NCBI GenBank assembly: GCA_029570205.1
Contig: JAKQSI010000045.1
Location: 1-64,000 of the forward strand
Direction: 5' to 3'
Length of the DNA stretch: 64,000 nt
Origin: Candidatus Omnitrophota bacterium
GTDB taxonomy: Bacteria > Hinthialibacterota > Hinthialibacteria > Hinthialibacterales > JAKPRU01
Below, in pieces: positions 16,992 to 61,784 of this stretch. The notes under the pieces are model-generated. The model saw nothing but the letters and a program-made list of their open reading frames with translations. It searched no databases and was not told the DNA's origin. The translations under genes were made by a program, and so were the position numbers. The first letter of the stretch is position 1; every line of letters starts with the position of its first letter.

Positions 16992-16992
16992 A

Positions 16993-19142: not shown

Positions 19143-19193
19143 CGGTGCATCGCTCAATCCACCTTCCTCAGAGAAGGAAATGAGTGTACCCCT

Positions 19194-20651: not shown

Positions 20652-20654
20652 CGG

Positions 20655-22103: not shown

Positions 22104-22114
22104 GGAGAAGAAAC

Positions 22115-23215: not shown

Positions 23216-23245
23216 GCAGCGGCCGAGCGGGCAAGGATTCGGGCA

Positions 23246-25797: not shown

Positions 25798-25812
25798 TTT
25801 GGAGAAGAGATA

Positions 25813-28298: not shown

Positions 28299-28305
28299 CC
28301 GTACG

Positions 28306-29205: not shown

Positions 29206-29216
29206 GGAATGAATTG

Positions 29217-30452: not shown

Positions 30453-30533
30453 TGCGGACCGCGAGGTTCTCTGGCTGGAAGGCGACAGAAACACTCCATA
30501 ACGAGATTCCTTTGAAGAGAGAGGAGCCAAATC

Positions 30534-37800: not shown

Positions 37801-40737
37801 TCAGTACACGTACCATTCTCGAATATCGACAGGCGGCAGATGGTCCGTGATTTCTTTTTGGAATGCTTCAATTTTGATATAGCGGAGCGGTTGCAGGTTG
37901 CAATCCAACGTATACACTTCGCGATCATAATCCGTTTCTCCCGTCAATACCGCAAGCCCGTATGTTTCGCCGACGGGGGGATCGAACAACACCCAGAATG
38001 TTTCGTTCCAATTGTGGTGATCCGCTGCGTAAACAAGATTCCAGTAATTGCCCTGTTCTACATAGCCTTCTTCGATGTCGACCTGCGCGTAGACTAGATT
38101 GGCAGGTCCCGTGCCGGCCATAGCCGGTTGCCAGCGTTCGTACAGATGGACCGACTGGCCGTTCTCCAATGCAAGGTCTATCCGATGAAGAGGCAGGCCG
38201 GCATAAGTCTCCGATGCATATCGGAGGAAATCAATCCGTACGCCGACCTGAATCCGGGCAAGCATATAAAGGTCCCGTGAAAGAAACGGCTCATCAAAAA
38301 TAATCATCGCAGGACTCGGCCCACCGTCCATGAGATTTGTAGAAAGATAGTCGATAAATAGAGAAAGAGTCTGCCCATTGAAATCGAATTCCTGATCGAA
38401 GCGAAACTCGACTCGATTTACCGGATTTCCGACTTCCTTGACAGTCAGTTTTCCGGGAGACAACGGCTGGAGAACGGTCCGCGCCGGACCGAACTCAAAA
38501 CGGTCGATCAGATCAAATGAATAGATGCCGGACTCCAGCGCCATCGCGTGATCCCCGGGCACGAGGTCAATGGCCGATAGATATTCATACTCTTGCTCCA
38601 GGCTTCGGCCTTCTTGAAACACTCCCACTACTCGCGTATTCTGCGGAATTCGCAAAACACATCTTTCCTCTTGCGGCGGCACAGCAGAGGTCATCAGCGT
38701 CGGGCGAACCTGTTTGATTACCAGCTTCCCCATGTCGTATTTGAATTCAATATCCAGACAGACTTGATCCCGCCGATACTCGCCGAGTTCAACCGGCATG
38801 TTCTGCTCGATGTCCCAGAGGACTCCTCCGATTTCGCGCAACTGATCCTCCGAAAGAACCCATTCTCCCTGCGGAAGCAAGGAGGAGGTGCGCACACGGA
38901 GAATTTCCGAAACCTGGCCGTCTGTAAACGTAAGCAGATCCTTTTCCGGAACAATTCCCATCTCGGGCAAAACCACACTATAATCGCCCGCTTGCACATT
39001 GATGACGAAATAGTTTTTCTTTCCCGAGACTGGATCACCCGTAAACGCGACGCCATTACAGTCCTCCCGGGGAAATGCTTTCGTCACAAGGATTCCCATC
39101 CGAACCTTGCGGTGATCAATCTGATAGTACTCCCTTTCTTCGAATGCCTTCGGATTCCACAGGCTTGCCCAGACAAGTTTCAGGCCGCGTTCAATCGTTC
39201 TCTCATCATCCTGGTCCGGTTGACAACGGCAAGGCCCTGTTTCATCCCCGTCCAGTGTGTCCTCGGCGCATACCGAGGTAGAGTCATACAGGCCCGCACC
39301 GTTAAACTCAATATCGTCCTCGGAATTGGATGAGGATCGAAACCGGACCATTACATCCGTTGACCCGTATACCTCCTCTATTTTTGCAACGATTCCAGAG
39401 ATAAGCACCGGGTCAATAACGCCCGTCAGGCGGATGACATCCTGGAAATGTTCCAGCTTCTGTCGCCGATATGCCGTATCGGTTTGAAAAGGAGAATCCT
39501 CCAGAAGTAAATTCAAATAGTCCTGAAATGTGATCCGGCGGAACGGGTCTTCGGGGTCTCGTATGGTATTGGAATTCATGAATTCCATGTAGTAATGAAA
39601 TGGAATCGCGAATCCGTCTACCTGGTATGCCTTGTCCAGGAAAGAATAGAGTCTCGCCAGTCCCGTCGCTTTTCCACCGAATCGTCGGATCAAAGGCTCC
39701 TCCTTCCAAACGCGGGCCAATTGCGGAAGACTTACCAGTTCCGAATATACATCATCGGGTTCCGGAAGCGGGGACAACACGGGCCGATGGGCGGTCCACC
39801 ATGCCTCCGCGTCCGCAAGTTCAACCGGTACGACCACTTCATACCTGTCGGTTTCCAGAATTAACTTAACGAGTTGACCGCTATAGGGTGCAAATATCTC
39901 TGTCGCGTTTCTCACATAGCCGTTCGGGGTACCCCGACGCAGGGACCGGACATTAACATGCGACAGTTCGCCCTGTTGTGTTCCGGTAATAACACCCGCC
40001 ACAACTGTCCCGATATCGGTCGGCGCAGTATCGACTACCACAATATCCTGCCAACCGATCAGACCGTGCTCTTCCGCCTCTTGGAGCTCGCTCAATGTGT
40101 ATAGGCGGACGCGACCGTAATTGGTTGCAGGGGAATAGGCCTCATAGTCGGGTGTGACAATACCGTCGGGAAGATAAATTGGGAATCCGGGCTCTTCCCA
40201 CTCCCGCGCCGTTTCTATGGCGACCGTTGTCTTCGGCGCGTAAGCAAAAGGGCGCAGGGTAATCGTCTGCGATAACAGTTGGTAGACATAAAGGACCTCC
40301 ACAGGAAGAGGCGGTTCGGACAGAGCCGAGTAAATATCGAATCCATAGAGAATCCCGCCTTGAGAATCCTGGAAACGGGAAATAGATCCCGCATAGTACC
40401 GACGAGAGGATCGCCGATAGACCAGGTCCAGGTATTCCGGTTCGGTCAATCCGGCGAAACGTTCCGGGAATTCTACTGCAAGAAACTCCTGGTGCAGCGG
40501 GTAGCGATTCACGTTCTGATAGACGGTGTGCAGTAACGCAGGATCGCTCGTCGCGGGGGCGGTAAACTTCCCTGTTCGAAGCAGGTCGGGGCGGCTGCGG
40601 TCCGTCACAGTTATCCTGTCGAAGTCCGTCTCGCTGTCGATCCTCGCCAGCCAGGCAGGTTCTTGTCCCCAGGCAAACAAAGCTATCCGGCACAGAAACG
40701 TCGCGCAATAGACCACAACTTTAATTTTCCCATTCAC
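37801..40737 (-). CDS. Exported PEP/pyruvate-binding (PPDK/dikinase-like) protein with large C-terminal extension
   Basis: Signal-like N-term VVVYCATFLCRIALFAWG; phosphohistidine-like ITGTQQGELSHVNVRSLRRGTPN; ATP-grasp IRRFGGKATGLARLYSFL and VMVRFRSSSNSEDDIEFNGAGLYDS. Confidence 0.75.
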   Translation of the reverse strand: MNGKIKVVVYCATFLCRIALFAWGQEPAWLARIDSETDFDRITVTDRSRPDLLRTGKFTAPATSDPALLHTVYQNVNRYPLHQEFLAVEFPERFAGLTEPEYLDLVYRRSSRRYYAGSISRFQDSQGGILYGFDIYSALSEPPLPVEVLYVYQLLSQTITLRPFAYAPKTTVAIETAREWEEPGFPIYLPDGIVTPDYEAYSPATNYGRVRLYTLSELQEAEEHGLIGWQDIVVVDTAPTDIGTVVAGVITGTQQGELSHVNVRSLRRGTPNGYVRNATEIFAPYSGQLVKLILETDRYEVVVPVELADAEAWWTAHRPVLSPLPEPDDVYSELVSLPQLARVWKEEPLIRRFGGKATGLARLYSFLDKAYQVDGFAIPFHYYMEFMNSNTIRDPEDPFRRITFQDYLNLLLEDSPFQTDTAYRRQKLEHFQDVIRLTGVIDPVLISGIVAKIEEVYGSTDVMVRFRSSSNSEDDIEFNGAGLYDSTSVCAEDTLDGDETGPCRCQPDQDDERTIERGLKLVWASLWNPKAFEEREYYQIDHRKVRMGILVTKAFPREDCNGVAFTGDPVSGKKNYFVINVQAGDYSVVLPEMGIVPEKDLLTFTDGQVSEILRVRTSSLLPQGEWVLSEDQLREIGGVLWDIEQNMPVELGEYRRDQVCLDIEFKYDMGKLVIKQVRPTLMTSAVPPQEERCVLRIPQNTRVVGVFQEGRSLEQEYEYLSAIDLVPGDHAMALESGIYSFDLIDRFEFGPARTVLQPLSPGKLTVKEVGNPVNRVEFRFDQEFDFNGQTLSLFIDYLSTNLMDGGPSPAMIIFDEPFLSRDLYMLARIQVGVRIDFLRYASETYAGLPLHRIDLALENGQSVHLYERWQPAMAGTGPANLVYAQVDIEEGYVEQGNYWNLVYAADHHNWNETFWVLFDPPVGETYGLAVLTGETDYDREVYTLDCNLQPLRYIKIEAFQKEITDHLPPVDIREWYVY

Positions 40738-45208: not shown

Positions 45209-48200
45209 TCATTGTACGGTTTTGCGGACAGATCGATTGAGAAGCAGCCAGACTCCCCACCCCAGCCAGATCACCAATCCCAGACAAGACAACGAGAATC
45301 CCTGCGCAAACGAAGGCGGATCATAAACCATCCGCAGAGTATGACCACCCGCCGGAACGGCGATACCACGAAAGAATCGGAAAATCGGGAAGATATCCAC
45401 TTCCTCCTCGTCCAGCCAGGCTTTCCAATCCGGAAAGAACGGTTCGCTGATACACAGCAGTCCATCCTTCGGAGCAAATCCGGCTATTTCGATTTCCTCA
45501 GGAGAGGACTGTGTTACAAGCCATTGGGATTCGGAGGATTCCTTTCGGAGGTCCGATTCCAGGGCGATCGGATAGGCGGATGTCTCCGGCTGGGTCGCTG
45601 TCGGAGCAGGTTGGGGGAACGGAACAAAAGGCTTGCGAGCCAATTGTTCCTTGGCCCCACGGGACATCAGGACGGGGATCTGCAAAGCAGTCAACTGTGC
45701 GCTCCGTGCGGCGTCTAACTCTGCCGCTGCGAGATCCGGCGGAGGGGTGTTCAGTTCCGGCATGGGAAATCCTTCGACCGAAGTTCTGATAATGACATGT
45801 GTGCTGGAGGCAATCTCCACAGCGGACCCGGCAGTTGCGCCTTTCACACCAACAAAGGCATGTGCCCAGCGAAATCTCTTCCTGAGATCCAGCTCGCATC
45901 CCACCGCCCGGAGCGCCTGGATGGTCTCCGATTGAAGGATATTGCAGCCCTCATCGCGTACCGCACCGATCACAATCGCACCGTTGGGGAGATTTTCCAG
46001 GAAACGAATCATCCGGGAATTCTCCGGAGTCCCGGAAACAACCTGGCCGGTGGCAACATCCCAGTCCATGCCGATATCGAAGGAGTCTGTGGCAACAACG
46101 TTGTTGTTGATCGGGTCAAGCCATGCCAGGTTGTAGCCACGACGATTGGGCGCATAGTCCTTTCCGGAAACGATCAACGCGGCTCGGTCACTTTCAACAT
46201 CCCGGGGAACGGAATCGTCTTTGGGAGAGCTGAACAGGACAAGCGGAACTCGAAGCATAGCGGTCCCATCGCCGATGCGGCAAGAAGAAGCGGGCGGCAT
46301 GGAAATCGGGAACCGGCTGTGAGCCTCGTATAACTGTCGGGCATTGAAATGTCGAGTATCCAGAAAGATCTCCGGGGACGGTAGAGACGGTGGTGACAGA
46401 AACCAGGCCCCATCTACCTCGCTCATAATGAGGGCTTCTGTGGCGCTGACCACCTCCATTGCGGTTCCCGGCGGCATTCCCTTCACCCCGATCATGGAAT
46501 GCGCCAGCCAAAGGCGCTTGCGCAAATCCACACCGGACCCGCAGGACCACAACGCCCGGACCGCATTCTCCTGCAAGATGTTCGTGCCCTCTTCTCGAAT
46601 CGAGGCAAGAACGATATGACCGTTCGGAACGCTGTCCAGAAACCGAGCCATACGAGTGTTTTCCTGCTTTTCGGGAGGGGCAAATCCGGTGGAAGGATCA
46701 AAGTCCGCCATGGTGTTAAAACAATCCCGCTTGGTGACTTTCCCTGTTTGAGGATCCAAAACGGCAATGTTGTACCCGGTTCGGTTCAGGGAGTAGTTTT
46801 CTCCAGCGACCAGGATTACAGATTGATGCCGGACGGAGTTCTTGGAAATGCTCAGGCAGACAATCGGGGAAGGCAATACGGCTGAGACTCCGGGGATTCG
46901 CGCGGAGGCAACGCTCGACGGTTTGAATCGATCCAGGCCGACCAGTGCAACACGATCATAAGGGACACTCTGACTCGCCAGCAAAGCCGGAATCGAGGTC
47001 GGTTCGACAGCCCACCAGGAACCGTACCACCGAACCGGAGCAGAGACATCGGGATTTCGCCATAGATGCTCCTGAATTGGTTTCCATGGCCCCCCGGGAC
47101 CGGGAATATCCGAAAGGATGTATTCCGTATTCAGCAGGTCCAGAAACCGATGGTTGATACGCGTCGGATCTTCCAGACTGTGCAGGCCATTATTGCGCTG
47201 CACGTTGTAATAGGAGGGTCTCAGGGGACTCTCACCGTCCAACTCACGAAATCCGAACACCTGACCGTGATATTGGCGGCGGTCTTCACCTTCGGGACCG
47301 AACCGGATCTTGACTCGGCCCCGTGCAGGATTATCGAGAATCGTCTGTACGCATTCATCCCAAACATACTCCCCGGTTCTCGGTTCAATCTCGCGGGTTC
47401 CGTGAACAGTAGCCAAATCCCAGAAAACCAACAGAACAACAAAAGCGGAAAAAACCGTATGCGTGATTTTCCCTTGCGCATAGAGGACGGCCACCGCCAC
47501 AACAAGAAGGAGGCAAAGCAAAATCCAGCCGATCTGCCGGATCAACAGCGGCAACGAATCGGATATCTGTCCCTGAACAATGAAGAGACGAAGAACGATC
47601 AGAAGAAGAAAGGCAAAGAACATACAAAGGAACAACACTCCGAACGTGCCGAGATAAATCCGTGCAACATGATTCCGGGAGAAAACGCGGTCCCGCGTGA
47701 GAGCATCCAGTCCTCGTCCGGCCGCAAGCGCAACAGCCAGAGTTACCACAAAGACCCACCGACTTGACGCACGAAGCCAGGCTATTCCGGGGATAAACTC
47801 ATACGCCCACCGATGTGCCGCCGTGACATCCCCCAAAGCCAGGATGCCTGCCACTACGGCAATCAGGAGATAAAAGCCGGCCGGCCCTTTCCAGCGAAAC
47901 ACCGGTATACAAAACAACGCAATCAATGTTGTGGTAATCCCCCAGTAAAACACTTCGGCTCCGACATCCAGACCGGGGAGACGGACCGTTTCCGGCAATA
48001 CCGTATCGACAACCAGTTCCTCAATGGGAAGCGACAACTCCGAACTCGATTCATAGGTCGGACGGGCACGTTCTCCCTCGGTCACCAGCCCCCGCAGAGG
48101 AAGCCACTGCACCATGGTGGCAAGTCCGGCCACACCGACGAGCACGAGAACTGTCAGCCCGCGATGAAACGCCTTCGCCCGCTCCTTTGTTTCGGCTACG

Positions 48201-48865
48201 CAAACCGCCCACACCAGTCTGGCAAGCACAACAAAGGTGAGATAAATAGCCATTTGCGGATGGCCGCCAAAGTAGGTGCAGATCAGACAGCCTCCACAGA
48301 GCCACCCCGCCATTCGCCGTCCTTCAACCAGAAATTCCTCCAGGCAGAGGAGAATCCAGGGCAGCCAAACCGCCGTTTGGATGATATTGGAATGTATCTT
48401 GTGGGCTACCAGGAACCCGGAAAAGGTAAGAATGATACCGGCAAGCAGCGCAGCGGTATTCGTAAGCCCGTGTCTCCGACCCAGCATGGCCGTGCCCAAT
48501 CCGGCGAAAAACAAATGCAACAGAATCCATCTTTCAAAAATCGAATAGGAGAATCCATGCTCGCTCCAAAATGGAAGAAGCAGAAGGTTCGGCGGGTAGA
48601 AGAACGCCAACTCGGAGTTCGCGATCCCCGGCCAGCCCCCAAACAAATGTTCATCCCAGAGAGGAATATGCCCGTTCAGGAGCTCTCGAACGGCGAAAAG
48701 CCGGAACGGGTAATCTTTGAATTGAAGGTCTGCCCCGACATGTGAACGTTCATTGCGGTTCGGGGTCAGGATGGGCCAGAAGAACACGATCAGGAATACA
48801 AACAGCACCATCCCGATCGGCCAGACCGCAGATGGGAATCCTTTGCGAATCATCGGAAACCCCAT
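45209..48865 (-). CDS. YfhO-like large polytopic membrane protein with two tandem ILEI/FAM3-like domains
   Basis: Multi-TM N-term with DEHLFGGWPGIANSELAFFYPPNLL; two approx. 130-aa repeats of (N)RxGYNxAxLDPxxxxV...F(D/N)...RMxRFLxxxPNGxIVxxxxREEGxNIL...GxxxDLRKRxxxAHxxxGVKG. Confidence 0.75.
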   Translation of the reverse strand: MGFPMIRKGFPSAVWPIGMVLFVFLIVFFWPILTPNRNERSHVGADLQFKDYPFRLFAVRELLNGHIPLWDEHLFGGWPGIANSELAFFYPPNLLLLPFWSEHGFSYSIFERWILLHLFFAGLGTAMLGRRHGLTNTAALLAGIILTFSGFLVAHKIHSNIIQTAVWLPWILLCLEEFLVEGRRMAGWLCGGCLICTYFGGHPQMAIYLTFVVLARLVWAVCVAETKERAKAFHRGLTVLVLVGVAGLATMVQWLPLRGLVTEGERARPTYESSSELSLPIEELVVDTVLPETVRLPGLDVGAEVFYWGITTTLIALFCIPVFRWKGPAGFYLLIAVVAGILALGDVTAAHRWAYEFIPGIAWLRASSRWVFVVTLAVALAAGRGLDALTRDRVFSRNHVARIYLGTFGVLFLCMFFAFLLLIVLRLFIVQGQISDSLPLLIRQIGWILLCLLLVVAVAVLYAQGKITHTVFSAFVVLLVFWDLATVHGTREIEPRTGEYVWDECVQTILDNPARGRVKIRFGPEGEDRRQYHGQVFGFRELDGESPLRPSYYNVQRNNGLHSLEDPTRINHRFLDLLNTEYILSDIPGPGGPWKPIQEHLWRNPDVSAPVRWYGSWWAVEPTSIPALLASQSVPYDRVALVGLDRFKPSSVASARIPGVSAVLPSPIVCLSISKNSVRHQSVILVAGENYSLNRTGYNIAVLDPQTGKVTKRDCFNTMADFDPSTGFAPPEKQENTRMARFLDSVPNGHIVLASIREEGTNILQENAVRALWSCGSGVDLRKRLWLAHSMIGVKGMPPGTAMEVVSATEALIMSEVDGAWFLSPPSLPSPEIFLDTRHFNARQLYEAHSRFPISMPPASSCRIGDGTAMLRVPLVLFSSPKDDSVPRDVESDRAALIVSGKDYAPNRRGYNLAWLDPINNNVVATDSFDIGMDWDVATGQVVSGTPENSRMIRFLENLPNGAIVIGAVRDEGCNILQSETIQALRAVGCELDLRKRFRWAHAFVGVKGATAGSAVEIASSTHVIIRTSVEGFPMPELNTPPPDLAAAELDAARSAQLTALQIPVLMSRGAKEQLARKPFVPFPQPAPTATQPETSAYPIALESDLRKESSESQWLVTQSSPEEIEIAGFAPKDGLLCISEPFFPDWKAWLDEEEVDIFPIFRFFRGIAVPAGGHTLRMVYDPPSFAQGFSLSCLGLVIWLGWGVWLLLNRSVRKTVQ

Positions 48866-48913
48866 GTTCCTTCCTATCCCCGCTGTTTTTGTAAAGAGAG
48901 CGGAGCGCCGGAA

Positions 48914-50173
48914 TTATACCGATGCGCTCTCCTTCTTCTGGGCGATGCCGTAGAGATCTTTCAGCAGGAAATAGGCGAGCGCCGCAAGAAAGGCCATCGA
49001 GCCGGACAGGACAACGACAGCAGGACGGTTGGGCCTGGCAACCGTATCCTTGGCCAGTGCTTTGGTAATCGGGATCATCTCATATCGCTCGGAGAAAATG
49101 GTTGTGAACGCCCATCCCAGCTCCTTGTCGATGCCGCCGAAAATCTCGTAAGACCGGTCGTACTCGGCTTTCAGGCGCGCCACCTCAATCTGTCTGTCAT
49201 AGATCTGGTTCTGGGCCTCACGGACTTTTTGCTCGAGGTCCGGCAGCATTTTTTCGATCTGCGCGAGTTTCGCCTGATCGGCAATAAGCTGCGCATTCAA
49301 ACGGTCCTTCTCAGCAAGAAGAGTATAATGCTCCTGGTTGGGAGATTCGATGGTCAGAGAAAGATTTGGGAGCTGGGAGCCTTTGAGTTCCGGTGTTGCG
49401 CTGCGAACCATTTCGAACAGCACTGCGTCCTCCGAAAGTGTCCGTGCCAAAACAAGCTTCTCCGGCTGATTCTGAACGGCCTTTTCCAAGCCGGCCACTC
49501 GTACGGCGAGTTCCTGGGTCGAGACGATCAGATTCTCCCGTTCGCTCAATCTTAACTGCCATTGGCTGTACAGATTGTCCAGATACTTCTGAAGAACTTC
49601 CACTTCATATTCTTTTTGGGTGCGCAGATAAAGTTGCTCGCGACTGTTGTTGGCAGCCATTCGATCAGCCAGTGTTTCATCGAGCAGCTGTGCAGTCCGG
49701 CTCGCCTCCTCGATAAGGAACGCGATATTCTTCTCAATCCCCTTTCGGACCAATGAATTCGCGACTTTCGCGGCCATTTCGGGAGTTTCCATTTCGGCGT
49801 ACACCCGGATGACACTGGTCTCCTTATACTTGGAAACACTGATACGGGAAGCGAGCTGATCGACTTGACTGATCTCGTAAGGCTTCTCAGATAATCCCAA
49901 TTCCGGATCATCAATAATGGCTTTCAGTGTATCGTCCCCTTCGATATAACGTGCATAGACTTCAACCGGCGTGATCCAATTTTGCATGGCCCGTTCGCCT
50001 ACCCGCGAAGGTCTCACTTCGACCTCCGCCATCGCCCCATACCGTTTAGTCATAAACAGCGTGGCGATAAAAAAAACCATCATTACAACGAACGTGACCG
50101 TCAGAATCCGTTTCCCCCGTTCCCAGACGACCCGATATACAGAAGAGAGATCGATTTCCCGTTCAATGCTCAT
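48914..50173 (-). CDS. Chain-length determinant (Wzz)-like protein
   Basis: DLSSVYRVVWERGKRILTVTFVVMMVFFIATLFM TM1, central coiled coil, C-terminal TM after ITKALAKDTVARPNRPAVVVLSG. Confidence 0.75.
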   Translation of the reverse strand: MSIEREIDLSSVYRVVWERGKRILTVTFVVMMVFFIATLFMTKRYGAMAEVEVRPSRVGERAMQNWITPVEVYARYIEGDDTLKAIIDDPELGLSEKPYEISQVDQLASRISVSKYKETSVIRVYAEMETPEMAAKVANSLVRKGIEKNIAFLIEEASRTAQLLDETLADRMAANNSREQLYLRTQKEYEVEVLQKYLDNLYSQWQLRLSERENLIVSTQELAVRVAGLEKAVQNQPEKLVLARTLSEDAVLFEMVRSATPELKGSQLPNLSLTIESPNQEHYTLLAEKDRLNAQLIADQAKLAQIEKMLPDLEQKVREAQNQIYDRQIEVARLKAEYDRSYEIFGGIDKELGWAFTTIFSERYEMIPITKALAKDTVARPNRPAVVVLSGSMAFLAALAYFLLKDLYGIAQKKESASV

Positions 50174-51479
50174 CCGCTGCAAACCCCTTTCCGGATAATG
50201 GTGTGGCCGGTTGCGGAATCGCAGAAGGACTCTCATCCCCGGACCGGTCTGCGGTCGATTCTGCCTCTTTGGCTGTTTCTAAGTCCTTTTTTACACATTC
50301 TGCCAGGCGATCCCGGAAAAACTGCACGTGGTGTTCGGCGCACTTGGCTTCTTCCCATGCCTGAGTTTTCTCCTGCAAGATGAATTTCGGCAAAAGCCCC
50401 TGGACAGTGGGATTGTCGAAATCCTGAACCGTGCCCGCAACTTTGCGCGTCACATAGACAAATGTGTACCCGGAAGGGATGGGTAAGATATCCGACAGTT
50501 CGTGAAGCGGAACCTTGAGCAGTCCATCGCAGTATTCCTTCCCCAGCGCAGGCCATGCTTTGGGAACATGATAAACATTATTCAGGCCGGAACTAAATCG
50601 GGCATCCTCCGTCTCAGAGTACTTGATGGCCATTTCTTTCATGATTTCGATTCGGCCCGTCACATCTTGTACGGTCTCGAACTTTTTCTGCACTTCCGTC
50701 AGGAGCGCCCGTAATTCCTGACTGGCTTCCTCCGGAGTTCTTTTATCGCCATAGAGCAGGCAGACCCGCCGGACATCCGTTACCGCCGGGGGAGAGAAGT
50801 GCGTATCCACATGCGCGTCATACCATTTTCTTTTCTCTTCAGGTGTAGTTTCCTCGATGAATTTCTGATTTCGGATTCTCTCCATTTTCGTCATCAGGAT
50901 TTGGTTGGCAATCAGTTGCTCCAGGTTGGTTCCCTGCCGACGAAATGAATCGAGATAAGCGTTATATTGTTCTTCGTCCTTGAAGTAAGCCTTTGCGCGG
51001 CCCAGAAAGGCTTCAATCTCCTGGGGACTCGCCTCCAGTTTGTTCTGCTGGGCCTCTTTCAACAAAAGCCATTGAGAAATAACCTCACCCACTCTCTTTT
51101 CCAGCTGCTGCGTCAGGTACGGTTCGAGGTCTGGGTTGCCCGACATTTGAGACATCAGAACCGCTTTCCGAGGATCCATATATCCTCGAATACGATCATA
51201 CGTCACAGTTTCCTCGCCCAGCTGAAGTATGACCGTTTTGTCCCATGCGAAGACCTGGGCATCTGAAGTCGGTGTTGCTTCCATGATCGTCGGAGAAGCC
51301 GCGGAAGGAGTCGGAGTACTTTCCGGGGAGACAGCAGGCGGAGACGGGTTTCCACAATGGGTGAAACACAAAGGCACAAGGCAAATCGTGGTCGTCAATA
51401 TTACGCGAAGCCGGCGGAACATCGGTTGTCTCCGGGACGAAATCACCAAGTTTATCAACATAGCAGATTGATCTTTCAT
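50163..51479 (-). CDS. Exported lipoprotein, SurA/PrsA-like peptidyl-prolyl isomerase
   Basis: Lipobox-like CFTHC; SurA-N-like QLEKRVGEVISQWLLLKEAQQNKLEASPQEIEAFLG; parvulin-like ITGRIEIMKEMAIKYSETEDARFSSG region. Confidence 0.65.
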   Translation of the reverse strand: MKDQSAMLINLVISSRRQPMFRRLRVILTTTICLVPLCFTHCGNPSPPAVSPESTPTPSAASPTIMEATPTSDAQVFAWDKTVILQLGEETVTYDRIRGYMDPRKAVLMSQMSGNPDLEPYLTQQLEKRVGEVISQWLLLKEAQQNKLEASPQEIEAFLGRAKAYFKDEEQYNAYLDSFRRQGTNLEQLIANQILMTKMERIRNQKFIEETTPEEKRKWYDAHVDTHFSPPAVTDVRRVCLLYGDKRTPEEASQELRALLTEVQKKFETVQDVTGRIEIMKEMAIKYSETEDARFSSGLNNVYHVPKAWPALGKEYCDGLLKVPLHELSDILPIPSGYTFVYVTRKVAGTVQDFDNPTVQGLLPKFILQEKTQAWEEAKCAEHHVQFFRDRLAECVKKDLETAKEAESTADRSGDESPSAIPQPATPLSGKGFAADEH

Positions 51480-52411
51480 TGGGCAGATTGCACAGGCGTT
51501 CCAACCGGTGAATATCCGGTAAACGGCAGTGATTCCAGGGGTTGAGGAACAAATATGGGCATGGGCTTATCGGGATGATAGGTTCTCCAATACCGCTCGA
51601 AGTTCTGGCGTTGTGTTTCGGCGGAATCCAGATTCTGCTGCCCTGTCAATGCCTGTTCCTGCTGGAACTGCCTGCCATAAACTTCCATGTATCGTCGCTT
51701 GCTCTCCTCAATTTGCTGTTTGCTCGGAGGCTTGGGAAGATTGACACCGGGGAGGGGACGATAATCCCTGGAGAGCTCCTTCATCTTGTTGCCGTAAACT
51801 TGCATATAGTAATCCAGCCCTTGCTGTTGCTCTTCGGGGGTGAGCGGTCCCTTTCGGTTCTTGAGATTCTCAAGGAATGCGGGGACCTTGATCAGTGGAA
51901 GAGCGTAAGTGGCAGAACCAAGTTGCATTATCGCCGCCTCCGGCGAGAGCGACGCCACTACAATATCGTGCTCAAACGGCATTCCTTCTGTGACCTCGCG
52001 TTGCTCTTTGGTTCCGAAATGTTCAAGACGCCCGCGTTTTGTGGAGGCGATCTGGGTAAAGTCAACATAGTTCCAGTTCAACAGGAGGTTGATCAGGGCA
52101 TTCCGTCCCGGTTCAATCGGGGGAACCTCTGCCTCGGGTGTCTGCTCCGGCTGTGGGATGGGGGGTTCCGGGGGGACTGATGGTTCCTCCGTCACAGGTA
52201 CGCGAGTGGGAATGACGATCGTGGGGAATAATTCCACAAAGGTTTCCGCCGATGGGGTCGGAGTGGAAATTGGCGGAATGAGATCTGGAGTCGGCAGCAC
52301 GGCAAGCTGATACGGGCCGGACTCCATTCGCGAGCCGGAGAAAAGAACAATTCCGACCAGCAGAATCGCGACGATCAGAATCAGCAACGGGATCAGGATA
52401 GTCAGGCGCAT
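51476..52411 (-). CDS. Membrane-anchored hypothetical protein, Pro-rich
   Basis: N-terminal TM ILIPLLILIVAILLVGIVLF; STPTPSAE and PPEPPIPQPEQTPEAEVPP segments; repeated YYMQVYGNK / RYMEVYGRQ. Confidence 0.6.
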   Translation of the reverse strand: MRLTILIPLLILIVAILLVGIVLFSGSRMESGPYQLAVLPTPDLIPPISTPTPSAETFVELFPTIVIPTRVPVTEEPSVPPEPPIPQPEQTPEAEVPPIEPGRNALINLLLNWNYVDFTQIASTKRGRLEHFGTKEQREVTEGMPFEHDIVVASLSPEAAIMQLGSATYALPLIKVPAFLENLKNRKGPLTPEEQQQGLDYYMQVYGNKMKELSRDYRPLPGVNLPKPPSKQQIEESKRRYMEVYGRQFQQEQALTGQQNLDSAETQRQNFERYWRTYHPDKPMPIFVPQPLESLPFTGYSPVGTPVQSAQ

Positions 52412-52508
52412 AAACTCGATACTCGTATCGGATTTGTCCCCTCACCCGGTCCCTCTCCCAAAGGGCGAGGAAGACGTATACAGGCACGGTAATTTTACGC
52501 CTTGAAAT

Positions 52509-52551
52509 CAAAAAAGTAACGGCATTCGCCGGTGAAGACGAATGCCGTTAC
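52509..52551 (-). terminator. Rho-independent terminator for the 2138-aa gene
   Basis: GTAACGGCATTCG-N10-CGAATGCCGTTAC perfect 13-bp stem followed by TTTTTT on the - strand. Confidence 0.9.
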
Positions 52552-52575
52552 CGGAATAGCAATCGCTCGGCACAA

Positions 52576-55500
52576 TCAAAAGTTCTTCGGCAGGACGAAA
52601 TCGCTCCGACATACCCACACGAAGTAGATTTCCTCCGGCGTTTCGCCCTGCGGCAAATCCATCCGCTGAAGAATCCGCATCAAGGCAAAATGAACCCCAT
52701 CCCGCAAAATAACAAAGTAGGAATTGCCCGGAACCACATTGGTGGAGAACACGGTATCTGCCTCCGTATCCAAGCTGTCGGCCAAGACACTGAATCGGCT
52801 GACATTGTTTAGAATTTCCTGGGCGCTGATAGCAAAAATGTCCGTGCTGCCGCCCAGGTTCATGATCCCCTGGTTCTTGCTTGTAACCGCCAGCCTGTCC
52901 GCAGACTCCAGTACGATATCGGCATCCCCGGGCTGAAGAGTAACGACCATCGCGCCATCCGAGAAGGAGAATCCATCCGGAATTTCCACCTCCAACTCCT
53001 CCTCCAAAGGACCCGGTTCTGTGTCGGAATTGGCGGAAATCTCCGTACCGTTGCTGTTTACACGCATTCGCTGCGGCATCCGAATACCGGTGATCTGAAA
53101 CTTTCCGTTGATGTTTTCCATCTGGAACTGAAATGCGCTGCTCCGCCAGGAGGCAATGTCTCCCGGATACCAGACCATCTCCATAACCGGGGGACCATAG
53201 TAAATGTTGTAAACCATCTGCTGGAACCAGAACATGAAGGTGTTGAGTCTTCCGGGGCCGTGATAACTGAACTTAACCCGCCTCTGTCGTTCGGCACCCT
53301 TGCTCTGGAATCCGAAATACTCCACACGACGATTTCCCGGAGCGGCAATAAGGGCTTTCAGTTTGGTGGTATTCTCCGCACCCTCAAATTCATCCCAGCT
53401 GAAATCAGTGAGGCTTTGATTCAATATGTTGTCAATATCGTAGACACTCAGATTCCACCCGCGTCCGTCGCCGACCTCCCGGATCGTAACAGTCTGGCTG
53501 AACGGGAATCCCGGTTCCGAACCGCTTGTGTTTGGAAAGCCCTGGATATCCGCATAGACCGTCTGTCCCTCTTCTATCTCCGCGACAAGCCGGTTGACCT
53601 GCGGCAGGAAATAGGTGGTTTCGACCTGGGCCGTCACAATTACCTTGTTGCCCTGGAACGTCACCATCAAGGCATCCTGGGCTGTTCCGACACGCATGGA
53701 TTTCATGTGGTAGAAATCGAAGAAACCTCCAAGGGAGCTCGAAAGTTTCGCGCGGTTCATTCCCTGGTCGTCGCTGTAACTGGATGCCGTCAGAGCCACA
53801 ATCGATTTCATATCTTCGCTTGAGTATGCAAGCAGTAAGTCGTTAATCAGGCCGGGGATATCGCGGAGATTATATGAGGCGGATTCGATATCAACCACGC
53901 GGTCATCCTGTATTCCCGGTTCGTCGCCGAACACAGCGGCGTCCCTCGGCATGATGACCGCCTCATGCGTCGCGGCATAAATGTGCCCACCACCATCCGC
54001 CAGAAGGTACGCGCGTTCTTTCCCGGCCATCTTTGCCAAACTTCGAAACACAGGCTCATCGGAAATCGGCGGACAATACGGCGGAAGATCGGCTCCCAGC
54101 CCGTACATGCGACCGTACGCATCCAGGACGATAACCCCGGAGACACCGCGGCCCGCGATGACCAGCTCCATATCTCGCGCCAAATCCTCTCCGAAACCGA
54201 GACTCCGGTTATATCCGCTCGCCGTTCCGCTCCCGTAGATGTCGCCGGCGAAGGTCAGGAAATACATTCCCTCTCCATCCGGTGTCAATTCCATATCGCG
54301 GTAGATACTTACACCGGGAAGTCGGATTGTCGGAGCAAGATTCCTCGCAGGCTCTGTGCCCAGCGCAACAAAATCTCCATCCATGTCCAGGATGAAAATC
54401 GTTCCCCGTTCGAAATCCACCTCCAGGTCACAGGCGGAATTGATGGTCACTCCCGAACTTGGATTGTCAATGGGATTGGACGGGAACACAATCTCCCCAT
54501 CCGCCGCGACTTTGTCGCTGAAGAGGCCGACATTGCCGACCGCGAACACTCGGCCATCGGCTGCCAGAACAACCGCACCCGAATAATCGGCGGTGAGTTC
54601 CATATCGATGGCGAGTGTTGTGCCGCCCAGAGCGGTAACATCGCTCAATCCGGCCGCTTCACCCAAGTTGAAGATTCGGCCGTCGCTGACCAGCTTGTAA
54701 TAATCCACCAGGTCGCCGGTCGGACTAACAGGAATCCCGCCCGTTCCGGGAGACCCCGTGCTAGCCAGCGCAATCGGGCCATCTGCGTAAATCAACTGCG
54801 GATCGCTGATTCCATCGGTGATACTGGCGTAGATATAGTAATCCAGCGCCGGATCGAATCCCGGAATGTCCTCGGTCAGGTTTATCTTATAGCGGGTATC
54901 AACGCCCTCGGTCAGGCCGGCAACCAGCAGGTATCCGTCGAATCCCTTGTTGTCGGTATCCACATAGAGAGTAATCGTGGCGTCATTATCCGGGTCGACA
55001 GCCTCCCAGGATATCTCATACTGTTGGTACTCGTCCGCGTAATTCCGTCCGGCTTTCGGGGACAGGAACTTGAATGTCGGCGGGACATTCGCGCTGCGCA
55101 CAACGAGAGCGGATGTAACCACCGATCCGGTGCTCTTCCCCGGGAATCGGTCGGAATAGACCTGGTTGCAGTCCGTGAACGAGAGATACGTAATTGCGCC
55201 GGCGCCCATACGAACCTGAAACCGGTCGCCGACCTGTGCCGTCTGCGCAGCCCGAAGAACCACATAGTAATCATTTCCCCGCAGGACCCCGTATTCTTCG
55301 TCCGGAATCTGGATCTGGTATTCGTAAGAAATGTCCTCGTCGTTAGGAATACTTCTCAGCTGAAGGGTCTCCTCCGGGTCGGTAATGGTCACCTCCGTCG
55401 GTTCCGGAAGGGAATCCGGATCAAATTCCGGCGGCTCGACACTGCTCGGATCCTCCGCTTCCGCTCTCTCTTCGTTGTAGGCTTCCACTTCCTCATTCCA

Positions 55501-58500
55501 GGCATCGATGGCATCCTGAAGGGCTTGCATGTATGCATCATGCGCGTCCGAAATTGACGTAACAATCTGTTCGAAATAATCGTACAGCTGTTCAGGCGCT
55601 ATGCCGGTAGTCACGTACCAACCTTTTTGGCTTAAATCGGCTGTGGCATTCCCACCTTCCGGATTGCTCTCGCTGATTCCCTGATCGTTGGCAAGCATGG
55701 GAACCAGGCCCATTCGGTTAAAGACCGTGTACGGGTCTGCAAATCGAAGCGCTCGCAAACTGACCGAGTCCTCCGACGGGACAATCCCAATCGGTGTTCC
55801 ATTCTTGCTGAAGATTGTAGCGAGGTTAATCGGTTTCGGGTTTCCTGCGGCGCCGGCAGCGCTGATGATCGCGTCTCGGATCTTTCCGTCAAAACTAACA
55901 ATCAGTTTCCAGTCGGGAAGGTAGAACTTTCCGTCGTCCTCCGCTTGGCTGGGCTGCCACAGATATGGTAACACAGCGGCGAGAGGCAAAGTCAAATCAA
56001 TGACCGGTGTGTCCTTATCCCCGGTAAGACGGAATTGCCAATTGGGCTGCCGAGTCTCTCCCAGGTTGAGCCAGGACATGCAGTCACGAGCCGCCCACGG
56101 AAGACTACCGATTTTCAACACCCGCAGATCGAACACAGCGCGGTACGCCCCGTTGCTGATCGGCACAAGAGGCGAAAACGCCAAGTCTTCCGTGATTTCC
56201 ATCCCCGCCTCCGTCGGATTGAGGGGATCGGGAACAAACAGACCATGATTGACCGCCCGCTTATACATGCTTGCCCACGTATTCGGGCCGCTGACCGGAA
56301 TCCTTACAGATCCGTAGTGATCGTCAATCGGCAGGATGAAGTTATCGTAGGCATCGAAAACACCATTGATTCCTCTCGGATCCCCATCGCCGCAATCTTC
56401 ATCAATTAAGCCGTCACCTTCGTCATCGATCATGTTGACAACTTCTTCATCGATCATCCCGTCCCCATCATTGTCGAATCCGTCTCCGACCGGCGTGTCA
56501 TCATCTTCGTAAAGAATAACCTGATGCTCGGACACCATATTGTTAAGAGAAGAGTCGATCCCCTGGGCGTTTGTGGCTCCATTGATAATGCGTGGGTTAA
56601 AAACCGACTCCCCGGGGGCGGGCAGGAAGTCGACCGTGAGAGTGTCCAGAACGGTACCTTCCGTAAAGAAGACAGCTTCCTCATCGGTTCCGACGGTATT
56701 ATTGAACATCAGGTTGGTGTTCTGTCCGTAGTCCACCGCGTTGATACCGATGACCGCTTTCGGAGGCGACCCCAGCTGCGGGCCTGACAGGATATTATTG
56801 TTGGTTGCGTTATCCCCCGGTCCCGGTATGGTGAGATCCTGAAACGTGAATGTCGGACGCGGACGCCCGATCAGGGGATTTGTGTGGGTGAGTGTTTCGC
56901 CGGGACGTTCCGGCAGAAGACGGTCGTACCCCAGTCTCGGCTGACCCACCCTGGAGTACGATGGCAGCGTCTCAATATCCGTGGCTCCCCGCACAAAACG
57001 CTCCAACTGTTTGCCGATGGTTATGTCGCCGGGAAGAATAAATGGAAGAACACTGTACAGATTGCGGATCTTGTCGCTCGTCTTCACAGCGATATACAGT
57101 TCCGGGCGATCTGTATCCAACGCCACACTGTCTGAAGAGGGAACCCGGAGAAGTTCTTTCGGGTTGTTGTGAGAAAGCGGGAGAACCATGGTGAACCCGG
57201 TGATAAGTTGCCGACCGAACAATTCCGTGCTGTTATCGATTCCATCGCCGTCATACATCCCGTCCTCGTTCGCATCGGCAGATTCGAGGGCGGCATCCGC
57301 CAGGAGAGCATCAATCATTTCACGAGACAGACCCAGAACATACTTGCCGGTATCCCAGCTGAAATCCCTTGGGGCAACCCGATACGCATCGACCACTCCC
57401 GAAGCAATTTTGTATCCTTGAGGCGGTGCGTATTGGCCGTATCTCTGCATAAGCTCCGCCAAACCGGGTGTCAACAGAAAATCCAGCGGAACATCATCCA
57501 GCAAGAAAGACAACTGGACCTCGCCAGTGATCGGGCTGCGCGGCAACGCACTCCGCCTGGACTTGAGAAGCGTTGCGGGGAGCAAACGATTGATGATCTC
57601 GCGGGGAAGTGTCGTCACATCCAGAGTCTCGAATCGAACGCCATCCCCCAAGGTCAGCCGCCGGTCAAGGTTGCTTTCGTAAAGGCCTTGTACTCCACCG
57701 CTGCCCTCGGTGAATAGAAAAATCCCACCCTCGCCATCCTGAAGAAGGTCAAGAAAGATTTCAGGTGAAACCAGGGTAGGCACATCCATCCCACGGTCCG
57801 CCAGGTATTTAGCTCGATTGGGATTGGCTCGATTGAAAATACTCAAACCCCGTTCGTCCGGCTTAGCGAGCGGAGGCGTAAACACTTCATACCACGATGG
57901 ATTCTGCAGGAACTTCGGAACATGTATGTAGTAGTTCGGGAAGGTGTCATACGGATTCGCATTGCCAATGAACCTGGACGGTCCGTTGACGTATCCCAGA
58001 AAAATGTCATCTATGCCTGCCCAGCCCAAAGCGGTGCTGCCAGGCAAGAATTGCGGCCCATACAGCCAGCTGATGGGATACAAGTCGATCCCGATAAAGT
58101 TGACCCGGACTTCCTTGACGAAATACTCCTCGGTGGGCGCTCCGACCAAATCCATCGCCAGAATGGTTGTCGGCTCAGAACGGTTGATGATCCGCTGGCC
58201 GACCGTGGTTCGGTTGTAAATCTGGACAATATCGCCCTGGAAAATCGCGCGATTCCGAAACTCCGGAAGTATGGCCAGCCCACCCAGCTGAGTGGAGAAA
58301 TTCGTGGCAAAATCCTCTGAAGGGAAATGATAGTCGAATCGTCGAAAGACACCGACACTGGGATCGCGATCCTCAATCCGAATCATGCCCGGAGTCATGT
58401 ATGCCTCAAACGCATCGCCCTGTCGCAGTTCAATGCTGGTCTTGGCAACAATATAAAACTCCGGAAACCCGTCGCTGTTGATCGGAAGCTGTGTAGAGCC

Positions 58501-58992
58501 TGCAATCTGAACAGGTTCTAAGGTGATCTGGTATCCGGTGGCAAGAGGAACCACGGCCGGGGCCGACTTCAGAATCATGGGGATATCGCTGGTGGCATCG
58601 CCCTCGGCATAATTGAAAAACTCAGGAACATCGCCGGATTCGGCATAGAGAGCAATCCCGCTCGTGCCGTCCTTGGTGAGAGGCAAAAAATCTGTGAGAT
58701 CCAGTCCGCCGAGATTCTCAAGAATAAAGGTGATGGATTTCAGGTTCTGCTGACGGATCTGCGGCTTGGCGGTCCAGTCGTTGACCGACAGGGGAATGCT
58801 CAACAACGCTACCGGACCGGAGTTCGGTGAAACAACCTTCGTGGCAAGGTGGACTCGCGCATTGCTTGCGGCAAAATCCGGAAGTGGGATCTGGCCCCAC
58901 ATCGTCGGGGTAATTGCAGCCGAACAAAAGAGAAACACCAGGAAGAAAACAGTTGGCCGGGCGATTCGGCCACGCGATCTTGAGATGTTCAT
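52576..58992 (-). CDS. Giant (2138-aa) exported surface-type protein with Ca-binding-like DGDG repeats and propeller-like repeats
   Basis: Signal-like N-term TVFFLVFLFCSAAITPTMWG; FDNDGDGMIDEEVVNMIDDEGDGLIDEDCGDG; repeated DMELTxDxxG...LxxDGRVFAVG units. Confidence 0.75.
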   Translation of the reverse strand: MNISRSRGRIARPTVFFLVFLFCSAAITPTMWGQIPLPDFAASNARVHLATKVVSPNSGPVALLSIPLSVNDWTAKPQIRQQNLKSITFILENLGGLDLTDFLPLTKDGTSGIALYAESGDVPEFFNYAEGDATSDIPMILKSAPAVVPLATGYQITLEPVQIAGSTQLPINSDGFPEFYIVAKTSIELRQGDAFEAYMTPGMIRIEDRDPSVGVFRRFDYHFPSEDFATNFSTQLGGLAILPEFRNRAIFQGDIVQIYNRTTVGQRIINRSEPTTILAMDLVGAPTEEYFVKEVRVNFIGIDLYPISWLYGPQFLPGSTALGWAGIDDIFLGYVNGPSRFIGNANPYDTFPNYYIHVPKFLQNPSWYEVFTPPLAKPDERGLSIFNRANPNRAKYLADRGMDVPTLVSPEIFLDLLQDGEGGIFLFTEGSGGVQGLYESNLDRRLTLGDGVRFETLDVTTLPREIINRLLPATLLKSRRSALPRSPITGEVQLSFLLDDVPLDFLLTPGLAELMQRYGQYAPPQGYKIASGVVDAYRVAPRDFSWDTGKYVLGLSREMIDALLADAALESADANEDGMYDGDGIDNSTELFGRQLITGFTMVLPLSHNNPKELLRVPSSDSVALDTDRPELYIAVKTSDKIRNLYSVLPFILPGDITIGKQLERFVRGATDIETLPSYSRVGQPRLGYDRLLPERPGETLTHTNPLIGRPRPTFTFQDLTIPGPGDNATNNNILSGPQLGSPPKAVIGINAVDYGQNTNLMFNNTVGTDEEAVFFTEGTVLDTLTVDFLPAPGESVFNPRIINGATNAQGIDSSLNNMVSEHQVILYEDDDTPVGDGFDNDGDGMIDEEVVNMIDDEGDGLIDEDCGDGDPRGINGVFDAYDNFILPIDDHYGSVRIPVSGPNTWASMYKRAVNHGLFVPDPLNPTEAGMEITEDLAFSPLVPISNGAYRAVFDLRVLKIGSLPWAARDCMSWLNLGETRQPNWQFRLTGDKDTPVIDLTLPLAAVLPYLWQPSQAEDDGKFYLPDWKLIVSFDGKIRDAIISAAGAAGNPKPINLATIFSKNGTPIGIVPSEDSVSLRALRFADPYTVFNRMGLVPMLANDQGISESNPEGGNATADLSQKGWYVTTGIAPEQLYDYFEQIVTSISDAHDAYMQALQDAIDAWNEEVEAYNEERAEAEDPSSVEPPEFDPDSLPEPTEVTITDPEETLQLRSIPNDEDISYEYQIQIPDEEYGVLRGNDYYVVLRAAQTAQVGDRFQVRMGAGAITYLSFTDCNQVYSDRFPGKSTGSVVTSALVVRSANVPPTFKFLSPKAGRNYADEYQQYEISWEAVDPDNDATITLYVDTDNKGFDGYLLVAGLTEGVDTRYKINLTEDIPGFDPALDYYIYASITDGISDPQLIYADGPIALASTGSPGTGGIPVSPTGDLVDYYKLVSDGRIFNLGEAAGLSDVTALGGTTLAIDMELTADYSGAVVLAADGRVFAVGNVGLFSDKVAADGEIVFPSNPIDNPSSGVTINSACDLEVDFERGTIFILDMDGDFVALGTEPARNLAPTIRLPGVSIYRDMELTPDGEGMYFLTFAGDIYGSGTASGYNRSLGFGEDLARDMELVIAGRGVSGVIVLDAYGRMYGLGADLPPYCPPISDEPVFRSLAKMAGKERAYLLADGGGHIYAATHEAVIMPRDAAVFGDEPGIQDDRVVDIESASYNLRDIPGLINDLLLAYSSEDMKSIVALTASSYSDDQGMNRAKLSSSLGGFFDFYHMKSMRVGTAQDALMVTFQGNKVIVTAQVETTYFLPQVNRLVAEIEEGQTVYADIQGFPNTSGSEPGFPFSQTVTIREVGDGRGWNLSVYDIDNILNQSLTDFSWDEFEGAENTTKLKALIAAPGNRRVEYFGFQSKGAERQRRVKFSYHGPGRLNTFMFWFQQMVYNIYYGPPVMEMVWYPGDIASWRSSAFQFQMENINGKFQITGIRMPQRMRVNSNGTEISANSDTEPGPLEEELEVEIPDGFSFSDGAMVVTLQPGDADIVLESADRLAVTSKNQGIMNLGGSTDIFAISAQEILNNVSRFSVLADSLDTEADTVFSTNVVPGNSYFVILRDGVHFALMRILQRMDLPQGETPEEIYFVWVCRSDFVLPKNF

Positions 58993-59500: not shown

Positions 59501-60184
59501 TCAATTGGGTGACACTTTTTTGGAGGGACCTGCGGAATCCGACTTCGGGGGACTTCCCGCCGGAACAAGGTGGCCCACCCCACCTTTCATCTCCGGCATA
59601 TAGAAGTTCAACCGTTTCGGCTTCGGCACACGGGACCCTTTCAAAACAGGTTCGCCATTCTCATCCAGCCTGAACGTCGCATGAAACTCCTGTCCCTGCC
59701 AGTCGATCCGCTGGTTCCCAAATGTGTAATCTAACTCTCCATCCTTCCCCTCCAAACCGAAAATATCCAGTTTCAAGTCCCTGTATTCAATGGATTTCGG
59801 CCCAACCATTCTGTCTTTGCCGCGCACGACACGCGCATCTCCCTCGATCAGAAAGTCCGCCCGTTGCTTCCCGGTCTTCTCATCCATGGTCCGCCAAACG
59901 GTGATTTTCTTTCCGGTTGCCGTGGTTTTGACTTCCGTTGGCCCGTTCTTCCCCTTTTCCACAGTGACCATGGTAAGAGTAGCAATACCCTGAGAATCCG
60001 AAGGAGTAAGGGTGTATTTTTCCACATTGTCATCCCCGACCTGCATGTCAAAATCCGTGTTTTCTCCGATACTGAGGGTCGTGCCGTCGCCCATGGTAAT
60101 CTGCACACCCTCCTGGGCATAAGCGAAAACACAAAACCATAGGGCCGAACACAGAATTGCGGATCGTTGAAACATCACACCCAT
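59501..60184 (-). CDS. LptA/OstA-like periplasmic protein
   Basis: Signal peptide; TLTPSDSQGIATLTMVTVEKGKNGPTEVKTTATGKKITVWRT...FLIEGDARVVRGKDRMVGPKSIEY; 1-nt overlap with the upstream LptC-like gene. Confidence 0.55.
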   Translation of the reverse strand: MGVMFQRSAILCSALWFCVFAYAQEGVQITMGDGTTLSIGENTDFDMQVGDDNVEKYTLTPSDSQGIATLTMVTVEKGKNGPTEVKTTATGKKITVWRTMDEKTGKQRADFLIEGDARVVRGKDRMVGPKSIEYRDLKLDIFGLEGKDGELDYTFGNQRIDWQGQEFHATFRLDENGEPVLKGSRVPKPKRLNFYMPEMKGGVGHLVPAGSPPKSDSAGPSKKVSPN

Positions 60185-60915
60185 TATTCCCTGCTCCTTT
60201 TCTTCTGTTTTGCATCCTTATCGGACTGAATGTCCTGTAATCGTTCTTCAACGGATTTGCCGGTCGTAAGATGGCGGCCCGCCTGGGTCAATTCAAGCAG
60301 AAATCCTTCTTTGAAAGAGGCCGATGATCCTCCCGGAGATTCAACCCGCGTCCGATCCCGGCAGATCAAGGCACGGTAATCGGGAAAGAAAGAGACCTCA
60401 CCGGAAGTACTCAGGATCCGTGGTTGCCCCGATTCCTCGAAGTGAATCCGCACATCCGTGGCAAGCCGGATATCGCCGAGTGTACTCGGAAAAAGTTCCG
60501 TCACATCGGGAACATCCGCCAGCCCCGAACCGGCGATCGCCCGACAGATTTCCTCCCCCTCCGTGCCATTGATGATTACTACGGGAGCCACCATTCGAAC
60601 TTGAGCTTTTACGGGATCATATTCTGCTTCCCGCGCGTTGACAAAGGTCACGGCATCCCGGCTCCGGTCCTCAAGACGCATATCCCGAAAAACAAAATAA
60701 TACCCAAGAGGCCCCTGTGACTGCGGAAACGGCAATTCTTCTTCACGAACACAAAGGATATAAACAGCCATCAGGAAAAGGCCGCCCCAGAAGCCCAAGG
60801 AGCTCCTAACCCCCCTCTCGCGCCACCAGGGAATCGCTTCGGCAGGTGTTATTTCAACCGGTTTTGTCTCCGGTCGGGTCTGACTGGGTCGTGACGGCGG
60901 TGCATCCACATCCAT
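60184..60915 (-). CDS. LptC-like membrane-anchored protein
   Basis: Single N-terminal TM then LGYYFVFRDMRLEDRSRDAVTFVNAREAEYDPVKAQVRMV...FFPDYRALICRDRTRVES. Confidence 0.5.
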   Translation of the reverse strand: MDVDAPPSRPSQTRPETKPVEITPAEAIPWWRERGVRSSLGFWGGLFLMAVYILCVREEELPFPQSQGPLGYYFVFRDMRLEDRSRDAVTFVNAREAEYDPVKAQVRMVAPVVIINGTEGEEICRAIAGSGLADVPDVTELFPSTLGDIRLATDVRIHFEESGQPRILSTSGEVSFFPDYRALICRDRTRVESPGGSSASFKEGFLLELTQAGRHLTTGKSVEERLQDIQSDKDAKQKKRSRE

Positions 60916-61784
60916 TGCTCCGGGTATTGTTCGATCACCGCAGAAAGGCGCGCGTTGAGAGAGCCAAGAATCCGTTCCATGTAGTTCTCCCATTCGGGTC
61001 CGGACCGGACGGCAAGAGGATCGACCCGCAAAGCCGGGTGAAAAACGAACCGATACGCCCACGGGCGGGTCCGAACGGAATAGGCAAAAACAACGCCTGC
61101 GCCTGTATGGGCCGCCAGAACCGCCGGTCCGATCAGAGTATAAGCAGGTCTACCCAGGAATTCCACCCAGCGGCCCTCACCCTCCGTACGGACATCGATC
61201 AGCAAGGCAAGCACATCCCCGCGACGCAACGCCCGCACCATGGACATACCCCCCTCCCCCTTTGTGTAGTGAACATGCAGTCCACACGCATCTCGATGAC
61301 CATCCACAATCTTCCGGTAAATCGGGTCACGAATCGGACGGGCTACAACATGGACGGAATACCCATGGCGTGCGAAATAAGCCGCCATCAACTCCCAGTT
61401 CCCGATATGACCTGTCAAAAGCAGGCATCCCCGGCCCTGCTCCAATACTTTCCGTACGGAATCAAGTCCCTCAATGGAAACGGACAAGCGATTCAGGAAT
61501 TTCTCCGGGGACCGCAGAGCCAGGAGTTCCATCACCGAACAAGCGAAATGCTGAAAAACGCCTTTCGCAATTTGCCGAACTTCCCGGCGACTCAGACGCT
61601 CTCCATAAAACTCTTCAAGATGCTGGATAGCTCGCGCGCGTTCGCGCCGGGAGACGGCATAGGCCAGATATCCCAGCAACCTGCCGAGACAATAGGTACA
61701 GCGTATGGGAATTGCCCGGAGGCAGTAAGTCAAGACGAGAACGGAATACGCGACCAGCGGTCGCCGGATCTCTTTCCAACGCAC
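60849..61784 (-). CDS. LpxL/HtrB-family lipid A acyltransferase
   Basis: HxxxxE motif GHIGNWE; RPIRDPIYRKIV...LLIDVR..GEGRWVEFLGRPA; GTG start with AAGGTG upstream. Confidence 0.85.
   Translation of the reverse strand: MRWKEIRRPLVAYSVLVLTYCLRAIPIRCTYCLGRLLGYLAYAVSRRERARAIQHLEEFYGERLSRREVRQIAKGVFQHFACSVMELLALRSPEKFLNRLSVSIEGLDSVRKVLEQGRGCLLLTGHIGNWELMAAYFARHGYSVHVVARPIRDPIYRKIVDGHRDACGLHVHYTKGEGGMSMVRALRRGDVLALLIDVRTEGEGRWVEFLGRPAYTLIGPAVLAAHTGAGVVFAYSVRTRPWAYRFVFHPALRVDPLAVRSGPEWENYMERILGSLNARLSAVIEQYPEQWMWMHRRHDPVRPDRRQNRLK

Follow-up and report, generated by a model that had tools for sequence, protein, structure and literature searches.

The 64,000-nucleotide stretch of DNA analysed here (the window) encodes a YfhO-type membrane protein containing two tandem ILEI/FAM3 domains, which raises the question of what such domains may do in a bacterial protein of this class. 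It is not settled what FAM3 proteins do in animals, and acceptor recognition by GT-C enzymes is poorly understood. Bacterial glycosyltransferases carrying a FAM3 domain would tie FAM3 to the handling of glycans.

Tandem ILEI/FAM3 domains and the membrane part that carries them

The protein had been described in a first-pass annotation as a YfhO-like membrane protein with two tandem ILEI/FAM3 domains, and comparison with Pfam confirmed both parts of this description. When copies A and B were scored one by one, each exceeded the ILEI cut-off; the protein as a whole matched PF15711 in two stretches and PF09586 at 50.4 bits, above the cut-off of 28.5 (Table 1). Within the genome, ILEI was found above cut-off in this ORF only, while YfhO matches also occurred in several other ORFs. 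The internal duplication was recovered as well: the residues quoted for it are present in the translation, with coordinates that deviate by at most ~40 bases (copy A, GENY..., starts at 46804 and ...TAMEV stops at 46451; copy B, GKDY..., starts at 46165 and ...SAVEI stops at 45812). In a two-sequence comparison the copies shared 67 identities in 170 positions (39%; E 9e-42).

Table 1. Coordinates of the YfhO-ILEI protein, its parts and the adjacent Wzz-like gene (positions in the window)
Feature	Position	Strand	Length	Evidence
YfhO-type membrane protein with tandem ILEI/FAM3 domains	45209..48865	-	1218 aa	PF15711 E 9.4e-28, PF09586 E 1.6e-13
ILEI/FAM3 copy A	46424..46870 (Pfam core 46478-46777)	-		54.3 bits, cut-off 27
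ILEI/FAM3 copy B	45785..46249 (Pfam core 45836-46141)	-		53.3 bits, cut-off 27
GT-C-like membrane bundle, residues 8-490	47396..48844	-		~12 hydrophobic segments; Foldseek matches to GT-C enzymes
First extracytoplasmic loop, D46-x4-D51 (D46, candidate catalytic acid)	48713..48730	-		D46, K50 and D51 invariant in 8 orthologs of the order
C-terminal YfhO beta domain	45287..45538	-		PF09586 positions 751-835
Last transmembrane helix, residues 1189-1210	45236..45301	-		hydropathy; preceded by a 698-residue loop
Wzz-like chain-length protein	48914..50236	-		PF02706 E 2.7e-7; conserved neighbour only within the genus

A profile built from 16 bacterial ILEI domains (copies A and B) was searched against all solved chains and matched the FAM3 superfamily only, namely the POMGnT1 stem (7.7e-11), FAM3B (7.2e-10), TMEM2 (5.3e-9), FAM3C (9.9e-7) and FAM3A (4.7e-6). 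Weak matches to WDR5 were put down to chance, since nearly none of them has a stretch that passes alone and the profile search does not reproduce them. The AlphaFold model of copy B (pLDDT 92.9, pTM 0.87) shows the FAM3 beta-beta-alpha fold: its top 21 PDB matches in Foldseek were all FAM3A/B/C, POMGnT1 or TMEM2 (TM up to 0.74), and the next match had an E value of 0.37. Copy A was seen only in the low-confidence full-length model. The homology to FAM3 proteins and the POMGnT1 stem, which had been proposed from a residue pattern, was recovered by both profile and fold. The domains share with the POMGnT1 stem/FAM3/GG family (PF15711) the sequence profile, the fold and, in copy B, three contact residues. 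They differ from those of POMGnT1 and eukaryotic FAM3 proteins in their tandem arrangement and in the residue that follows the R207 position, which is W in the latter and H in the bacterial copies.

Hydropathy analysis revealed ~12 segments up to residue 490, followed by the large loop and the last helix. This is the layout of YfhO proteins, which have 8-13 helices, the last of them preceded by a large loop. The ILEI pair sits in this loop. Paralogs encoded in this genome and elsewhere in the phylum can be aligned on either side of it, and the loop is ~440-470 residues longer than in the three closest paralogs counted (L035, L036 and L039). It is by these two inserted domains that the protein differs from other members of the YfhO family of GT-C proteins (PF09586), such as YfhO of B. 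subtilis. The ortholog in genome G006 matches PF09586 positions 75-443 at 8e-15.

When the full-length AlphaFold model was searched with Foldseek, FAM3/POMGnT1 structures ranked first and GT-C enzymes next, with ArnT at an E value of 0.009 (probability 1.00) and weaker matches to AftA, AftD, OST, Emb and PglB. On the evidence of this low-confidence model, the membrane part is similar to ArnT and other GT-C enzymes. A role in flipping, one of the two functions suggested earlier for the protein, is not supported, these matches being to glycosyltransferases and not to a flippase. The mean pLDDT of the model is 54.3, too low to place the ILEI domains relative to the active site.

The acidic motif of the first loop (D46-x4-D51) is not a strict DXD. 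YfhO-ILEI proteins of other phyla have GGD or CGD at the D46 position and do not keep D51, D46 being the only one of these residues kept across phyla. GtrA proteins are the usual flippase partners of YfhO systems; GtrA (PF04138) was found in 0/14 genomes (7/14 controls positive), and by this the protein departs from the CsbB-GtcA-YfhO three-component system, which includes a GtrA-family flippase. It also departs from the B. subtilis type in that its gene is not located beside a CsbB-type GT-A gene, no GtrA is encoded in the genome, and the host is probably a diderm candidate-phylum bacterium and not a Gram-positive one.

The retention of a single acidic first-loop residue across phyla and the lack of a GtrA partner in the 14 genomes, together with a weak NCBIfam match to the trehalose-lipid delivery protein MmpA (E 0.001, far under the cut-off), would suit a membrane part that acts as a transporter or flippase of lipids or glycolipids, or that is a degenerate, inactive GT-C scaffold rather than a transferase. 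We regard this as very improbable, given that the fold matches are GT-C enzymes (ArnT with full probability), that D46 is invariant in the order, that Wzx-type flippases are encoded separately in the same genome, and that NCBIfam also gave weak matches to PgfM glycosyltransferases.

Distribution of the protein and of other ILEI fusions

All nine genomes of the order that were examined (own included) encode exactly two ILEI matches in one protein of ~1200 aa, and the duplication is therefore not an artefact of one assembly. Beyond the genus, the orthologs retain both copies and show 30-33% full-length identity. ILEI matches were absent from 5/5 other genomes of the phylum that were examined. 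When one genome per species was scanned, six loci were obtained, all metagenome-assembled, of which five are titled Candidatus Omnitrophota. In plasmids no relative of the ILEI domains was found, and YfhO gave one match.

ILEI was present in 30 of 386 sampled genomes, nine of them from the order and the other 21 from the 372 sampled outside the phylum. From 17 of these 21 genomes we examined 20 loci. In at least 7 of the 21 the domain is fused to multi-spanning proteins, 3 of them YfhO and 1 PMT_2. The YfhO fusions (L067, L070 and L071) have one ILEI domain, placed as in the proteins of the order, and a profile of the order's proteins matches their membrane parts (L067 at 5e-69); it also matches, weakly, L065, which with L066 and L068 carries ILEI on a multi-spanning protein without other Pfam match. 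The remaining bacterial settings were C25 peptidases, CotH, TPR proteins and short proteins.

In the domain tree a split (92/68) sets nearly all copies of the order apart from the others, one long odd row being the exception; this fits a duplication in the ancestor of the order; the order of A and B is weakly supported. The group of other YfhO fusions requires two changes, a value equalled by 51 of 500 shuffles, so that the tree leaves undecided whether YfhO was fused once or several times.

Three further observations concern ILEI proteins outside the phylum. A PMT_2-type membrane protein of another phylum (L064:308-2776) has two C-terminal ILEI domains, a second and separate tandem pair, and is likely a glycosyltransferase. 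Large secreted C25-family peptidases contain one or two ILEI domains (L058, L059 and L062). An Alteromonas phage tail protein (L042:3001-3351) has an ILEI-like domain with the R/D/R triad described below and the bacterial AHAF-x-G-x-KG motif.

Sugar-contact residues and the proposed acceptor-binding role

In POMGnT1, residues R129, D179 and R207 contact the sugar (PMC9802357). On the sequence of the POMGnT1 chain we located them from the distances between them, 50 and 28 residues. In copy B of the window all three are present (R909/D971/R999), while copy A has T696/E758/W786 at these positions, and thus none of the three. Of the eight copy-B rows of the order, three have the complete triad, which copy B of this genus keeps in full, and no copy-A row has it; the R129 position is neither R nor K in 3/8 copy-B rows. 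The complete triad was also found in the phage tail-protein domain, FAM3B and TMEM2. With 30/115 identical residues between copy B and POMGnT1 overall, three conserved residues out of three are suggestive of sugar contact, as a hint and not as proof.

A similar asymmetry is known from FAMP-1 of C. elegans, another protein with tandem FAM3-like domains, in which only the second domain (Fam3L2) keeps all three contact residues and binds GlcNAc, whereas the first (Fam3L1) lacks two of them and does not bind (PMC9802357). FAMP-1 differs from the protein described here in being an animal neuronal protein with its duplicated domains at the N-terminus and no GT-C membrane part. FAM3-type domains have also been described in phage adhesins (PMC9437275; phage gp35 in PMC10276149): phage tail proteins (an Alteromonas phage Pb4-like protein and streptococcal Tal CBM_1) have the same domain and contact residues (PMC9437275), in a context of host adhesion and without fusion to a glycosyltransferase. 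Of the earlier suggestion that the two copies form a glycan-recognition pair, the recognition of a glycan still appears likely, with copy B carrying the three contact residues; the copies are not equivalent, and "pair" may overstate the part of copy A.

We consider it reasonably probable that this is a GT-C/YfhO-type glycosyltransferase acting on the extracytoplasmic side, with a built-in FAM3-type module that binds the acceptor glycan. The membrane bundle would work at the outer face of the inner membrane, where a polyprenyl-phosphate carrier would supply the sugar and D46 in the first loop would probably act as catalytic acid. The tandem domains in the large loop would keep the acceptor glycan close to the active site, much like the FAM3-like stem of POMGnT1 for its own glycosyltransferase. 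Copy B would be the sugar-binding copy in this genome, and copy A may be a spacer, dimer or packing module.

Several lines of evidence argue for such a function: (i) the Pfam matches to ILEI and YfhO, the profile matches to POMGnT1, FAM3 and TMEM2, the fold of copy B and the GT-C matches, (ii) the long insertion, relative to paralogs, at the extracellular loop of YfhO, (iii) the conservation of D46 across phyla and the R/D/R triad in copy B, (iv) the recurrent fusion of ILEI to YfhO, PMT_2 and other multi-spanning proteins, and (v) published data on related enzymes, since the presence of GlcNAc on lipoteichoic acid depends on YfhO (PMC5836110) and extracellular carbohydrate-binding domains of larger GT-C enzymes, e.g. 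AftD, are thought to serve the acceptor (PMC8035078). Against it count the incomplete triad of most copy-B rows and every copy A, the lack of GtrA in the genomes searched and of a donor synthase linked to the gene, and the low confidence of the full-length model. Nor is any YfhO-ILEI protein known to us to have been studied biochemically.

The same variability of the contact residues (none of the three in copy A here, at least one missing in most copy-B rows) would be expected if the ILEI pair were a structural or protein-protein module (a spacer or a site of dimerisation or partner docking) that binds no glycan, within an enzyme that is still a GT-C glycosyltransferase. One of the two FAM3 domains of FAMP-1 binds no sugar (PMC9802357), the POMGnT1 stem is reported to bind the protein fukutin too (PMC8478517), and in bacteria ILEI is found on TPR proteins and secreted C25-peptidase proteins as well. 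The full triad kept in copy B of this genus and in the phage tail protein, and the recurrence of ILEI in several separate membrane-glycosyltransferase contexts, argue against a purely structural module, which we think rather unlikely. For the ILEI domains of the TPR and C25-peptidase proteins, no glycan role is known to us.

The preferred reading, a glycosyltransferase with an acceptor-binding module, has parallels. POMGnT1 likewise joins a FAM3-type domain to a glycosyltransferase, one whose catalytic domain does not belong to the GT-C membrane enzymes. That GT-C enzymes may bear carbohydrate-binding domains on their extracellular side is a principle already in the literature, and AftD and similar enzymes have the same layout of a GT-C bundle with extracytoplasmic sugar-binding modules (PMC8035078), the putative binding modules being here of FAM3 type. 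Among the papers searched, we found none linking ILEI with YfhO or bacterial glycosyltransferases; domain databases may list the architecture. To our knowledge, no FAM3-type binding module has been reported for AftD. If the proposal is correct, this would be a new kind of acceptor-binding module for GT-C enzymes. Similar fusions in several other bacterial phyla suggest that a FAM3-like domain may repeatedly hold the glycan that is being modified. We would extend this, tentatively and with some doubt, to a recurrent acceptor-glycan-binding module of bacterial GT-C enzymes, fused separately to YfhO, PMT_2 and other proteins, with animal FAM3 and POMGnT1 as one branch of an older, glycan-binding bacterial family.

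Gene neighbourhood

Five minus-strand genes (45209-58992) are tightly spaced, and their order is conserved in one congener (L021), which suggests that they form an operon in the genus. The Wzz-like gene, from which a surface-polysaccharide locus had been proposed in the first-pass annotation, adjoins the YfhO-ILEI gene in L020 and L021 and is absent in L022-L027. In the order's other family, none of the neighbours seen in the window lies beside the gene, bar a distant histidine kinase match in L022; a GT87 gene is located near one copy and a GH43 gene near another, and the neighbours are otherwise unrelated. Following this synteny comparison, which revealed no conserved cluster of polysaccharide genes, and with no run of glycosyltransferases in the window, the polysaccharide locus was dropped. 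The surroundings in the window comprise the dcw cluster, a histidine kinase, and SurA-like and LPS-type genes.

Near the YfhO-ILEI gene of three genomes of the order we observed a convergent gene for a 4Fe-4S protein of ~215 aa (L023:11319-11993, L024:5490-6134 and L026:3136-3777). Within the window, a lipid A acyltransferase-family gene lies beside two genes without Pfam match that may be LptC/LptA-like by position (59501-61784, minus strand), which suggests that the cell is diderm. The dcw cluster (14934-31817, plus strand) looks complete (MraZ, PBP, Mur ligases, MraY, FtsW, MurG, FtsQ, FtsA and FtsZ). A 978-aa protein (37801-40737, minus strand) has an unusual layout, with the PEP/pyruvate-binding PPDK_N domain in mid-protein. 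The gene at 52576-58992 (minus strand) encodes a protein of 2138 aa that is hydrophobic over a stretch at its N-terminus and has matches in neither Pfam nor NCBIfam; the repeated "DGR-hydrophobic-LG" stretches within it appear, by eye, beta-propeller-like.
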